From: Candidatus Bathyarchaeia archaeon
Lineage (GTDB): Archaea; Thermoproteota; Bathyarchaeia; Bathyarchaeales; Bathycorpusculaceae
Direction: 5' to 3'
NCBI GenBank assembly: GCA_038880555.1
Contig: JAVZRN010000002.1
Location: forward strand, 62,001 to 126,000
Length of the DNA: 64,000 bases
Positions 33,383-37,783 of this stretch are shown here, piece by piece; positions within the stretch are counted from its first letter, which is position 1; each line of letters starts with the position of its first letter. The position numbers were made by a program, and so were the translations under genes. The notes under the pieces are model-generated. The model was not told the origin of the DNA. It ran no database searches and saw only the letters and a list, made by a program, of their open reading frames with translations.

Positions 33383-33423
33383 TAAATTTAGAAAGCCTCA
33401 TACAGAAGGGCTTTCCAAATTTA
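33383..33423 (+). promoter_or_regulatory. Long inverted repeat before the threonine-synthase-like regulator gene
   Basis: Two 15-base arms (TAAATTTAGAAAGCC and GGCTTTCCAAATTTA) match at 14 of 15 positions and flank an 11-base loop. The repeat begins 5 bases after the preceding stop and ends 28 bases before the ATG at 33452, which has its own ribosome-binding site (GGAGAGGGAAGAGG, 33431-33444). It includes TATA-like AAATTTA in both arms. It could be a terminator of the upstream gene, an operator or an RNA leader structure. Confidence 0.5.
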
Positions 33424-33451: not shown

Positions 33452-34855
33452 ATGTTCTTCCTGGAGTGCGTGGCATGTGGTGCAAAATTTGGAGCTTATC
33501 CGCCACAATATAGCTGTAAGAAATGCGGCAGTCTATTAGAATATAAATGCGATGATGAAACACTTAGAACTGGCAAATTTGTCGGTTCCTTTAATTTTTG
33601 GCGTTATAGGAAGCTTCTGCCAGAGGTTAGAAATGTTGTCTCTTTGGGGGAAGGGGGAACCCCACTTGTTAAGGCAAAGAGACTTCTCAAAAGCGTTGGA
33701 TTAAGCAATATATGCTTTAAAGATGAGACTCGAAATCCAACAAATTCTTTTAGGGATAGATGTGCCACCCTAATTGTTTCCAATGCTGTCGATTTGGGGT
33801 ATAAGTCGGTTGTTTGCGCTACAAATGGAAACCTTGGGGCCTCTTTGGCCGCGTACTGTGCAAAGTCTGGATTAACATGCCATGTTATAGTGCCAAGAAA
33901 CGTTGATATGGGAAAACTTGCCCAAATGCTCATCTACGACGCCGTAATTGAAGAATGTGGAGAAACAGTGGACAACTCGCTAAAAAGGGCTGATGAATTA
34001 GCCAAAGAAATGGGCTGGTATCCAGGGTCCGCCGAGTTTAATCCGCTAACCATAGAAGCCTTAAAAACCATCGCTTACGAGGTTTACGAGCAAATGGGCG
34101 TCCCAGAATGGTTTATAGCCTCCATGGGAAGCGGCGGGACATTATATGCCATTTGGAAAGGCTTCAAAGAACTTGAAATAAGGGGTGAAATAAACGCTCC
34201 TCCCAGGATGGTCGGCGTTCAAGCTGAAGGATGCTCACCAATTGTAAAGGCATACACCCAAAATGCACAAGAACCTATTCTTGAAACAAGGCCATCAACC
34301 CATGCGCTTGCCATACTCGTTAAAAACCCACGGTATGGCAAACTAGCCCTTAAAGCCATCAAAGAATCCCAAGGAATAGCCATAACAGTTTCAGACGATG
34401 AGATTTTCTCAGCAGAGCAGGAAATTGCAAAACTTGAAGGAGTCTTCGCCGAGCCAGCAAGTGCAGCAACATATGCAGCGCTCAAGAAACTTGTAAACCA
34501 GCATGTAATCGATAAAAAGGACAAGATTGTGTGTCTGATAACCGGAAGCGGCCTAAAGGCAACAGACATCCTCCAAGCCTTAACAAAGAGAAGAAAAACA
34601 GCCATTGTGGGGCTGGAGCTTAGCACAAAAGAGAAGATATTACGGATCTTATATGAAACGGATGCTTATGGCTATGAATTATGGAAAAAACTTGGGAAAG
34701 TGATGACAAGGGCAGCAATTTATCAGCATCTAAACGAGTTGTCAAAAAATGGGCTGATTTCAAGTTATGAAAAAGGTGGTCGAAGGTATTTCAGGATAAC
34801 AAAACGTGGAATAAAAGCTCTCCAAGCATTCGATAACCTAAAGCTTCTATTATAG
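33452..34855 (+). CDS. Threonine-synthase-like protein fused to a winged helix, PLP lysine replaced by Arg
   Basis: Residues 1-380 follow archaeal threonine synthase: a zinc ribbon (Cys6, Cys9, Cys22, Cys25), GEGGTPL at 66-72, FKDETRNPTNSFRDR at 89-103, ATNGNLGASLAAY at 123-135, the phosphate loop GSGGT at 226-230 and ITGSGLK at 363-369. In threonine synthases the motif reads NPTGSFKDR and its Lys holds PLP; here codon AGG at 33752-33754 puts Arg101 there. Residues 391-467 are a PadR-like winged helix (KEKILRILYETDAYGYELWKKL, AAIYQHLNELSKNGLI, GRRYFRITKRG). I infer a DNA-binding sensor rather than an active synthase. An ECF transporter gene follows 67 bases downstream. Confidence 0.82.
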   Translation: MFFLECVACGAKFGAYPPQYSCKKCGSLLEYKCDDETLRTGKFVGSFNFWRYRKLLPEVRNVVSLGEGGTPLVKAKRLLKSVGLSNICFKDETRNPTNSFRDRCATLIVSNAVDLGYKSVVCATNGNLGASLAAYCAKSGLTCHVIVPRNVDMGKLAQMLIYDAVIEECGETVDNSLKRADELAKEMGWYPGSAEFNPLTIEALKTIAYEVYEQMGVPEWFIASMGSGGTLYAIWKGFKELEIRGEINAPPRMVGVQAEGCSPIVKAYTQNAQEPILETRPSTHALAILVKNPRYGKLALKAIKESQGIAITVSDDEIFSAEQEIAKLEGVFAEPASAATYAALKKLVNQHVIDKKDKIVCLITGSGLKATDILQALTKRRKTAIVGLELSTKEKILRILYETDAYGYELWKKLGKVMTRAAIYQHLNELSKNGLISSYEKGGRRYFRITKRGIKALQAFDNLKLLL

Positions 34856-34889
34856 GTTTTCAGTTTTACAAATCACAAACTTAAAATAG

Positions 34890-34905
34890 TATAGTTGTAA
34901 CTATA
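34890..34905. promoter_or_regulatory. 16-bp palindromic operator candidate before the ECF transporter gene
   Basis: TATAGTT and AACTATA flank the dinucleotide GT, a perfect 7-base inverted repeat. It lies 17 bases before the ATG at 34923, in the 67-base gap after the winged-helix fusion gene, and overlaps the region where an archaeal transcript would start (a TATA-like CTTAAAATA is at 34880-34888). A winged-helix dimer is the natural ligand; that is inference. Confidence 0.5.
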
Positions 34906-34922
34906 ATAAAAAGGTTCACAAA

Positions 34923-35706: not shown

Positions 35707-36732
35707 TTGAAACTGCCATTTGGAAAGGTTCCCATTGAAATACTGAAAGAGGTTGTCTTCAAAAATCTGGGGTTTAAACGCAGGGAGGTTGTCCTCGGGC
35801 CTTCAGCAGGTTTTGATGGCGCGGTTATCGATTTGAACGGAAAATCCCTAATAGCTTCGATGGATCCAATTACTGGCGCTGTTGAGCGCATTGGCTGGCT
35901 TGCGGTGAACATCAACGCGAATGATGTTGCCACCTTCGGTGTGGAACCAGCGTTTTTCCTTTCATGCATACTCCTTCCAGAAAATGCCGATCGAAAAATC
36001 ATCGAGGTTATCTGTTCGCAGATGGATGCCGCTGCAAGAGATTTGAAGATAGCAATTATTGGTGGACACTGCGAGATAACGCCTGGACTTGCCAATCCAG
36101 TTGTTATAGGATGTGCCCTTGGAATCGCGGAGAAAGGGTGTTACGTCACTGCTGGTGGAGCCAAGCCAGGAGACAAACTTATTTTGACAAAAAGTGCTGG
36201 CATGGAAGGAACAGCCATACTTGCAACTGAACACTATAATAGGCTTCTAAATATGGGCGCCGATGATAAGCTGTTAAAGTCTGCACAGAAGTTTTTTGAG
36301 AGAATAAGCGTTGTTAAAGATGGCATTGCAGCCTTCAAAACAGGTGGAGTAGATGCAATGCACGACCCAACAGAAGGCGGTGTCCTCGGAGGCATTCATG
36401 AAATGGCAGATGCCTCAAACTTGGGCGTTAAAATTTTCGAAGAGAAAATTCCAGTGGCAAAGGAAACCGCGGAAATCTGTAGGCTTTTGGGGATAGATCC
36501 ATTACAACTGATAAGCTCCGGAGCCATGCTTATCGCGGCAAAACCAGAATACACGGAATACATAATCGAAAAATTGAAAGAGGAGAAAATTGAGGCTTCT
36601 GTAATTGGCGAGTTCTTAGGCGATCCAAAAGCGCGTGTAATGGTTCGGAAAGATAAACGTGAAACAAGTCTCCTACGTCCGGAATGTGACCATTTATGGA
36701 TGGCATTAACAACGCATAAAAGGGTCTCATAA
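35707..36732 (+). CDS. AIR synthase-related protein (PurM/HypE/ThiL superfamily)
   Basis: The 341-residue protein has the superfamily features: an N-terminal Asp-containing ATP-binding region (FDGAVIDLNGKSLIASMDPITGAVERIGWLAVNINANDVATFGVEPAFFL), GGHCEITPGL and the C-terminal MHDPTEGGVLGGIHEMADAS. It lacks HypE's C-terminal Cys (it ends HKRVS), so it is not a cyanide-ligand maturase. Its reaction is unknown; relatives phosphorylate thiamine phosphate or amidine precursors. It starts at TTG 35707, 31 bases after the ECF gene, on the same strand. Confidence 0.78.
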   Translation: MKLPFGKVPIEILKEVVFKNLGFKRREVVLGPSAGFDGAVIDLNGKSLIASMDPITGAVERIGWLAVNINANDVATFGVEPAFFLSCILLPENADRKIIEVICSQMDAAARDLKIAIIGGHCEITPGLANPVVIGCALGIAEKGCYVTAGGAKPGDKLILTKSAGMEGTAILATEHYNRLLNMGADDKLLKSAQKFFERISVVKDGIAAFKTGGVDAMHDPTEGGVLGGIHEMADASNLGVKIFEEKIPVAKETAEICRLLGIDPLQLISSGAMLIAAKPEYTEYIIEKLKEEKIEASVIGEFLGDPKARVMVRKDKRETSLLRPECDHLWMALTTHKRVS

Positions 36733-36748
36733 CGGTAAATGTTGCATG

Positions 36749-37783
36749 CTAACGTTTTTTCAAGAAGAATTTTACGCCCCGCCACTTATCCCTAACTATT
36801 TCAAGGTTACCAGCAACATTTCCATGAATCGAGTAGAAAATGTAGCAGAGATAGGTGCATCTTTCACATTCACTATACTTTCTGCGGAGGGCTTCAAACC
36901 TCTCACTTTTCCAAAGGTTGGGCAGATCGAAAATCGAGGCAACCGGTTCATGAAGGTGGCAACCAGCAACTTCACCTCGATGATTTATTACAAAGAAATT
37001 CTGAAGCGCACGGCACCTCCAAATTCTCTTATTCTCAAGATAAAGGTGCTTAACAGCCTCCAAAACTTTCGTTGTGATTAAAACATTGTCGTCTTCTCGC
37101 TTCATTTCTAGAAGTGAGTCGCAAACCTTTATCATGGCATCCCTATCCCTTATTAGAAAATGGTCTTCAGCCTTACCTATCTTGAAAAGGGAGTTTGAAC
37201 ATTCCGCCGCATCATAAGAGTATAGGGAATACCATACTGGGATACCTCTGTCTAGGAAGTATTTGGTGAAGTCAACAATCTCGTAAAGATTAGCCTGCGA
37301 AATGGTTGGAGTTACACTTACGTTGATGCCTTCTTTATGGAGCTTTTCAACAGCTTCCATAGCCCTTTTCCATGCGCCTTTAACGCCTCTTATGTGGTCG
37401 TTTTTTCCCGGGTTTAGGCTGTCTATTGAAATTGCTACAAAATTTGCGTGTCGTAAAGCGTCAATTTTTTCAGCTGCCATACTGCCGTTATCATAAACTG
37501 TTGTGAAAAAGTAACGTGATGCATATTCAATTATTTCATTGATGTCTGCTCTCAAGAGTGGATTGCCGCCAGATATTAAAACTTCAACAACGCCTAGTTT
37601 CCGAAGGATATCTAAACCCTGTTTAATCTCCTCAGTTGACAGTTCCTCATCATCTTGTTCTCGCCAGACATTGCATCCAGCACAACGGTAATTGCATTTC
37701 CTTGTAACCATCCATTGGACATGGTAGGGTCTGTTTGGAGCTAAAACCCGCGATACAATGCCTAAGGCTTTCCTAATTGACAT
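36749..37783 (-). CDS. Radical SAM protein with C-terminal cysteine cluster
   Basis: The 344-residue protein has the radical SAM motif CNYRCAGC (Cys30, Cys34, Cys37), SGGNPLLR for SAM binding and a SPASM-like set near the end: CRALQ, GCHLH, ECERCTYLC. The layout resembles HpnH-type and related archaeal radical SAM enzymes, which act on lipids or peptides; the substrate is not evident. It converges on the AIR-synthase-like gene (16 bases apart) and is upstream of glycosyltransferases. Confidence 0.8.
   Translation of the reverse strand: MSIRKALGIVSRVLAPNRPYHVQWMVTRKCNYRCAGCNVWREQDDEELSTEEIKQGLDILRKLGVVEVLISGGNPLLRADINEIIEYASRYFFTTVYDNGSMAAEKIDALRHANFVAISIDSLNPGKNDHIRGVKGAWKRAMEAVEKLHKEGINVSVTPTISQANLYEIVDFTKYFLDRGIPVWYSLYSYDAAECSNSLFKIGKAEDHFLIRDRDAMIKVCDSLLEMKREDDNVLITTKVLEAVKHLYLENKRIWRCRALQNFFVINHRGEVAGCHLHEPVASIFDLPNLWKSERFEALRRKYSECERCTYLCYIFYSIHGNVAGNLEIVRDKWRGVKFFLKKR

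Follow-up and report, generated by a model that had tools for sequence, protein, structure and literature searches.

A lysine-less threonine-synthase-like protein with a winged helix, a probable PLP-sensing repressor of vitamin B6 acquisition in Bathyarchaeia

We suggest that the gene at 33452-34855 of the window (the whole stretch of 64,000 nucleotides of Bathyarchaeia DNA analysed here), labelled as a threonine synthase, most likely encodes not that enzyme but a DNA-binding switch over vitamin B6 uptake and, where present, PLP synthesis. We give the reading of the protein as a PLP-sensing transcriptional repressor of vitamin B6 acquisition a probability of about 0.8. The domain architecture, the loss of the lysine, the operator, its targets and the co-occurrence of operator and fusion were all computed; what we infer is binding of the operator by the fusion protein, the choice of PLP as ligand over an adduct of PLP with an amino acid or a further vitamer, and the direction of the response. 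The survey covered the window's own phylum and 14 control genomes.

Results

Domain architecture of the fusion protein

The earlier note had described a threonine-synthase-like protein joined to a winged helix, with Arg101 in the place of the PLP lysine, and Pfam, the alignment to 1UIM and the AlphaFold2 model confirmed this description. The window protein starts with a zinc ribbon, followed by a lysine-less PALP domain (fold type II, threonine-synthase-like) and a C-terminal winged helix of the PadR type.

33452-34855, + strand: regulator gene (ThrC-like/winged-helix fusion), 467 aa (open reading frame, Pfam, NCBIfam, AlphaFold2, fold search)
33467-33526, + strand: zinc ribbon, residues 6-25, with Cys6, Cys9, Cys22 and Cys25 invariant in 42 sequences
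33638-34546, + strand: PALP (fold-type II) domain, residues 63-365 (PF00291, E 4.9e-78)
34577-34618, + strand: linker, residues 376-389 (pLDDT below 50, AlphaFold2)
34637-34825, + strand: PadR-type winged helix, residues 396-458 (PF03551, E 4.7e-12)

The AlphaFold2 model (mean pLDDT 89.8) is confident except for the linker 376-389, and its core has the ThrC fold: the best PDB matches are all threonine synthases, the highest TM (by target length) being 0.86, and the nearest solved proteins by sequence are threonine synthases as well. The PadR profile PF03551 scored 46.2 bits on the window protein, above its cut-off of 27, and Pfam detected no GntR domain, the winged helix being C-terminal and of the PadR type. 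DSSP of the model places the winged helix at about 392-467, with the helix-turn-helix at about 407-432 and the wing at about 436-449; in the region of the PadR dimerisation helices the monomer model has one terminal helix, 451-466.

This architecture is already captured by the NCBIfam family NF004170/PRK05638 under the name 'threonine synthase'. Profile positions 2-441 of 442 align to window residues 4-460, and the score of 403 bits is below the curated cut-off of 421, though the match is full length.

Replacement of the Schiff-base lysine

The database search and the alignment of the lysine column proposed in the earlier note detected winged-helix fusions clade-wide, with Arg at this column in most of them. 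Among 38 distinct fusions the residue is Arg in 29, Ile in 4, Lys in 2, and Phe, Met and Leu in one each; Lys is found in each of four true ThrC proteins encoded nearby. Other Bathyarchaeia relatives (the closest with 84% identity) all carry the winged helix; their lysine column has Arg or, in rare cases, Met or Ser. Full-length fusions were also found in several other families of the window's phylum, and the Desulfurococcaceae-like family (G141 and G236, both likely Staphylothermus, and others) has the motif NPTGSFRDR and the highest NF004170 scores.

33752-33754, + strand: Arg101 (AGG), aligned with the Schiff-base lysine Lys61 of Thermus thermophilus ThrC (1UIM)
33830-33832, + strand: Asn127, equivalent to Asn87 of T. 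thermophilus ThrC, kept in 38/38 fusions
34049-34051, + strand: Thr200, aligned with Arg160 of T. thermophilus ThrC, Arg in 0/38 fusions
34127-34141, + strand: glycine-rich loop GSGGT, residues 226-230, at the PLP-phosphate loop GNAGN of ThrC (alignment)
34541-34543, + strand: Thr364, equivalent to Thr317 of T. thermophilus ThrC, Thr in 33/38 fusions

Arg101 was read from a single window, which is the only point in favour of a sequencing or assembly error; the same column reads Arg in dozens of assemblies that were made independently and represent several families of archaea, which rules this out, and we regard its probability as negligible.

In the T. thermophilus enzyme we take Asn87 to contact O3' and Thr317 to contact N1 of PLP, Arg160 to bind the substrate phosphate, and Thr85 and Ser155 to be the residues holding phosphohomoserine. 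The last three are gone from the fusions (Arg160 kept in 0/38, Thr85 in 2/38, Ser155 in 1/38). Judged by this alignment, the presumed PLP-contacting residues, with the glycine-rich loop among them, are kept in the fusions and the presumed phosphohomoserine-binding residues are lost.

Homologues with a normal lysine, named in the earlier note as evidence against its reading, were limited to two winged-helix members (G404 and G277), and G404 has an operator of the kind described below upstream of an EcfS transporter gene. Since two fusion members carry Lys, the loss of lysine is not required for the regulator role. The maximum-likelihood tree has two clades of fusions, R/K with support of 81/75 and I/L/M with 100/99, and a single origin of all fusions is possible. 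The winged-helix fusions L098:9610-11019 and L101:4662-6071, with Lys at the Schiff-base column, lie inside the Arg clade. Members of the I/L/M clade (L076, L080, L081, L102, L103, L104) have Ile, Leu or Met at this column and a longer wing.

The operator and its genomic distribution

The gene downstream of the fusion encodes EcfS, the S component of an ECF transporter, and a conserved palindrome is located directly in front of it.

34880-34887, + strand: putative TATA-box-like element CTTAAAAT abutting the operator, read from the sequence
34887-34908, + strand: operator TAGTATAGTTGTAACTATAATA, with one mismatch against the consensus and separated by 14 nt from the EcfS start codon
34923-35675, + strand: EcfS (PF07155), HmpT/PdxU2-like (vitamin B6), the predicted regulated gene

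The Bathyarchaeia consensus is a 22-bp palindrome, TAGTATAGTT-NN-AACTATACTA, directly upstream of EcfS, and for the window copy 0.00 occurrences were expected in shuffles. The AT-rich element immediately 5' of the operator is also found in L067, L077, L138 and L140, and a site between a TATA-like element and the start codon would be the position expected of a repressor.

We scanned 347 upstream regions from 20 Bathyarchaeia loci. All 15 EcfS upstream regions have 0-2 operator mismatches, and 330 of the other 332 regions have 5-9; the remaining two contain EcfS operators already counted, picked up from spurious open reading frames. In 61 relatives the operator is present in 34/35 genomes with the fusion versus 0/26 without it (p 2e-16, a value not corrected for phylogeny), and it occurs once or twice per genome, only in fusion-bearing genomes. 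G070 has the fusion, and the operator was not found there at up to 1 mismatch. The links to the adjacent transporter gene and to the palindrome at 34890-34905 proposed in the earlier note are strongly supported.

The earlier note had also pointed to two palindromes. The one at 34890-34905 proved to be the core of the conserved operator 34887-34908; for the one at 33383-33423 no matching conserved palindrome was seen in the upstream regions of related fusion genes, and autoregulation at that site was rejected on this ground.

EcfS genes that are unlinked to the fusion often keep the operator (G062, G064, G071, the f24 genomes and G404, where the fusion is of the Lys type and a short EcfS on a different contig is preceded by the operator ATATTTTAGTTATAACTAGAATAT); linkage therefore does not explain the operator. 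At some unlinked EcfS promoters (L183, L190, L193, L196) a clear operator was not seen. Desulfurococcaceae-like genomes have the operator form CTTAAAGNNNAAACTTTA. In the I/L/M clade (L102-L104, L076, L080, L081) a different palindrome or none was found; in L104 such a palindrome, TATATAAGATTAAGCTTATATA, occupies the intergenic region that the fusion shares with the divergent EcfS.

These distributions bear on whether the palindrome belongs to a different transcription factor, the fusion being merely linked. Binding of the operator by the fusion is what we infer, Lrp-like genes adjoin the fusion in some Desulfurococcaceae-like genomes, and a co-occurring regulator could own the operator. The presence of the operator nevertheless follows that of the fusion from genome to genome, also where EcfS and the fusion lie apart, and a palindrome fits a dimeric winged-helix protein, which makes another owner improbable. 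That the fusion protein regulates B6 genes through the palindrome is, in our estimate, very probable.

EcfS and other neighbouring genes

The EcfS gene matches PF07155 with E 2.8e-31, and S components of this type are the commonest neighbour of the fusion (25/40 loci), across lineages that otherwise differ in gene order. In Desulfurococcaceae-like genomes the genes form the operon regulator-EcfS-EcfAA'-EcfT, and in L103 and L104 EcfS is divergent from the fusion gene. EcfS is present in 28/30 further-checked genomes (nearly all fusion-bearing), even where it is unlinked.

By sequence, EcfS has a single relative in the PDB, HmpT/PdxU2 (4HZU chain S, profile E 1.1e-16), and HmpT is also the best fold match (TM 0.79 versus at most 0.63 for other S components, by target length). 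Four of the six HmpT pocket residues (Glu41, Tyr120, Asn140 and Gln143) correspond to invariant or near-invariant Glu45, Tyr204, Asn223 and Gln226 of the archaeal EcfS; the other two, His84 and Gln87, correspond to invariant Lys88 and Glu91. The archaeal proteins are about 250 aa long, and most of them carry an internal insert of some 70 residues relative to HmpT/PdxU2. HmpT binds pyridoxamine (PMC4860826). This homology, together with the operator in common with pdxS, suggests that the EcfS of the window may carry a B6 vitamer.

35707-36732, + strand: AIR-synthase/ThiL/HypE-like ATP-dependent protein, a possible regulon member

A gene of this type is often located 3' of EcfS (13 loci; for instance, L168:1546-2562), and in G422 an operator-like site lies 27 nt upstream of a homologue. 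In the same genome 7/9 one-mismatch operator-like sites are not in front of B6-type genes and were treated as chance. The product is tentatively a candidate for a so far unrecognised B6-vitamer kinase. The next gene, 36749-37783 on the minus strand, encodes a radical SAM protein. Its NCBIfam matches, of which TIGR03961/NirJ-like is the closest, all score below cut-off, and homologues occur in 7 surveyed neighbourhoods.

pdxS as a second target

Two operator sites, found without prior expectation, are located immediately upstream of pdxS, which is followed by pdxT (PLP synthase). In Bathyarchaeia with both an R-type fusion and pdxS, the operator precedes pdxS in 4/4 (3, 2, 1 and 1 mismatches). 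G236 has only two exact copies of CTTAAAGNNNAAACTTTA genome-wide, upstream of EcfS and of pdxS. In G263 pdxS and pdxT follow a second, more decayed ThrC/winged-helix gene (L142, G263:C2) with the motif NPTGLYSDR, i.e. Ser at the lysine column, and no such operator site was found at this pdxS locus. The operator common to pdxS-pdxT ties the regulon to PLP.

PdxS was detected in 5/60 fusion-bearing genomes versus 181/338 others in the phylum sample, and it was not found in the window's own genome (1.75 Mb, 97% complete). Since PdxS is rare in the fusion carriers, most of them, including the window genome, look like B6 importers.

The earlier note had proposed PLP, an amino acid or phosphohomoserine as the ligand. 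Of these, PLP (or a B6 vitamer) is favoured because the operator marks B6-type EcfS genes and pdxS; threonine was not supported, and phosphohomoserine is disfavoured for the reasons given in the next section. An EcfS regulator with another ligand (another B6 vitamer, an external aldimine of PLP with an amino acid, or a different vitamin such as hydroxymethylpyrimidine) has to be weighed here. Hydroxymethylpyrimidine was first thought to be the cargo of HmpT (PMC4860826), two of the six pocket residues differ, and the protein has no lysine to anchor PLP. Against such a ligand, the pdxS-pdxT operator connects the regulon to PLP, and the predicted PLP contacts are kept; we consider it unlikely, and PLP itself reasonably probable.

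The threonine pathway and the true threonine synthases

Homoserine dehydrogenase (PF00742) is missing in 24/50 fusion-bearing genomes, among them the window's own genome and 9/10 of the Desulfurococcaceae-like ones. True, Lys-bearing thrC paralogues without the winged helix are present in the same genomes as the fusion and in some are its divergent neighbours. In several Bathyarchaeia the Lys-bearing thrC lies near homoserine dehydrogenase, and in most genomes it is unlinked to the fusion. The window's own genome has a Lys-bearing ThrC-like protein (L002, G000:C1:994089-995171), which is very divergent (tree branch 2.8), despite the missing homoserine dehydrogenase.

A genuine threonine synthase with an accessory DNA-binding domain, as PRK05638 names it, would agree with the ThrC fold and family and with the TIGR00260 score above its cut-off. 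The Schiff-base lysine is missing in 36/38 fusions, though, and this together with the lost phosphohomoserine residues, the separate Lys-bearing paralogues and the missing homoserine pathway led us to reject an active threonine synthase as very improbable.

The same data bear on a regulator of threonine or homoserine metabolism that senses phosphohomoserine or an amino acid. It would accord with the ThrC ancestry and with four loci in which the true thrC and the fusion are transcribed divergently (L078, L082, L083, L084). In the fusion-thrC intergenic regions of these loci no operator palindrome was seen, and the only high-scoring operator sites in the thrC-divergent neighbourhoods are those of EcfS; the palindrome as an operator of the divergent thrC was therefore rejected. 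With thrC unlinked in most genomes, homoserine dehydrogenase often absent, and Arg160, Thr85 and Ser155 lost, phosphohomoserine is disfavoured and a threonine regulator is quite improbable. The preferred reading remains a regulator of B6 genes.

Discussion

We propose the following mechanism for the PLP-sensing repressor. A dimer would bind through its winged helices to the 22-bp operator, which in the promoter of the ECF S-component gene is flanked by the TATA box and the start codon, and to the site in front of pdxS-pdxT in genomes that have these genes; once bound, it would block transcription. The ThrC-like domain would have turned into a sensor in which the contacts for the phosphate, the ring nitrogen and O3' of PLP are kept. 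As the Schiff-base lysine is replaced, mostly by Arg, and the substrate residues are lost, PLP could be held reversibly, without catalysis. Plentiful PLP would fill the former cofactor pocket without forming a Schiff base, and the PLP-bound form would repress B6 uptake and synthesis; with scarce PLP, repression would be lifted, releasing B6 uptake and, where present, pdxST. Repression as the sign of the response is well favoured, slightly more so than PLP as the ligand.

MocR proteins join a GntR winged helix to an aminotransferase-like domain of fold type I and are reported not to be present in Archaea, and the PdxR regulons include pdxST, pdxK and pdxU, the last for B6 transport (PMC5320631). 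Like MocR/PdxR, the window protein joins a winged helix to the fold of a PLP enzyme, and like the PdxR targets, the operator precedes genes of B6 uptake (EcfS) and PLP synthesis (pdxS), a likeness that is a functional analogy only. Unlike them, it has a fold-type II domain with a zinc ribbon, a C-terminal winged helix of the PadR type and no Schiff-base lysine. It is not a MocR/PdxR member, since the sensor fold, the helix-turn-helix type and the domain order all differ. Our results strongly support the type of regulator that the earlier note had envisaged, an analogue of MocR/PdxR with a different design, in which the PLP domain is of fold type II and has lost its lysine.

With the threonine synthases (1UIM, 2ZSJ, 2D1F) the protein has in common the fold, the PLP phosphate loop and the equivalents of Asn87 and Thr317, and it differs in lacking the Schiff-base Lys and Arg160 and in its extra winged helix. 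NF004170/PRK05638 has the same full-length architecture but is named as an enzyme, and neither the lysine loss nor a regulatory role is noted there. The CymR-CysK complex of Bacillus subtilis, as cited in PMC12895370 (Tanous et al. 2008), is a parallel case of a DNA-binding regulator that is modulated by a PLP enzyme of fold type II; it differs in having two separate proteins, an active enzyme and a role in cysteine metabolism. In the open-access literature we found no prior description of a ThrC/winged-helix fusion, a fold-type II PLP regulator or an archaeal B6 regulator. An archaeal B6 regulator of this type was apparently undescribed before.

Taken together, the data make it likely, at a strength between those for repression and for PLP as the ligand, that the fusions are a dedicated archaeal B6 regulator convergent with MocR/PdxR, in which a fold-type II enzyme became a non-covalent PLP sensor, with a regulon of the B6 ECF transporter, pdxST and perhaps the AIR-synthase/ThiL-like kinase, and that the clade is misnamed. 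PRK05638 is probably misnamed, and because of the name the threonine pathway is called too often in archaeal genomes. According to PMC9997740, most B6 transporters have yet to be identified, and the finding offers candidates for an archaeal B6 regulator and for a B6 transporter, with a specific operator. It would represent a second, independent path from a PLP enzyme to a PLP sensor, in which the Schiff-base lysine may be dispensable or even selected against.
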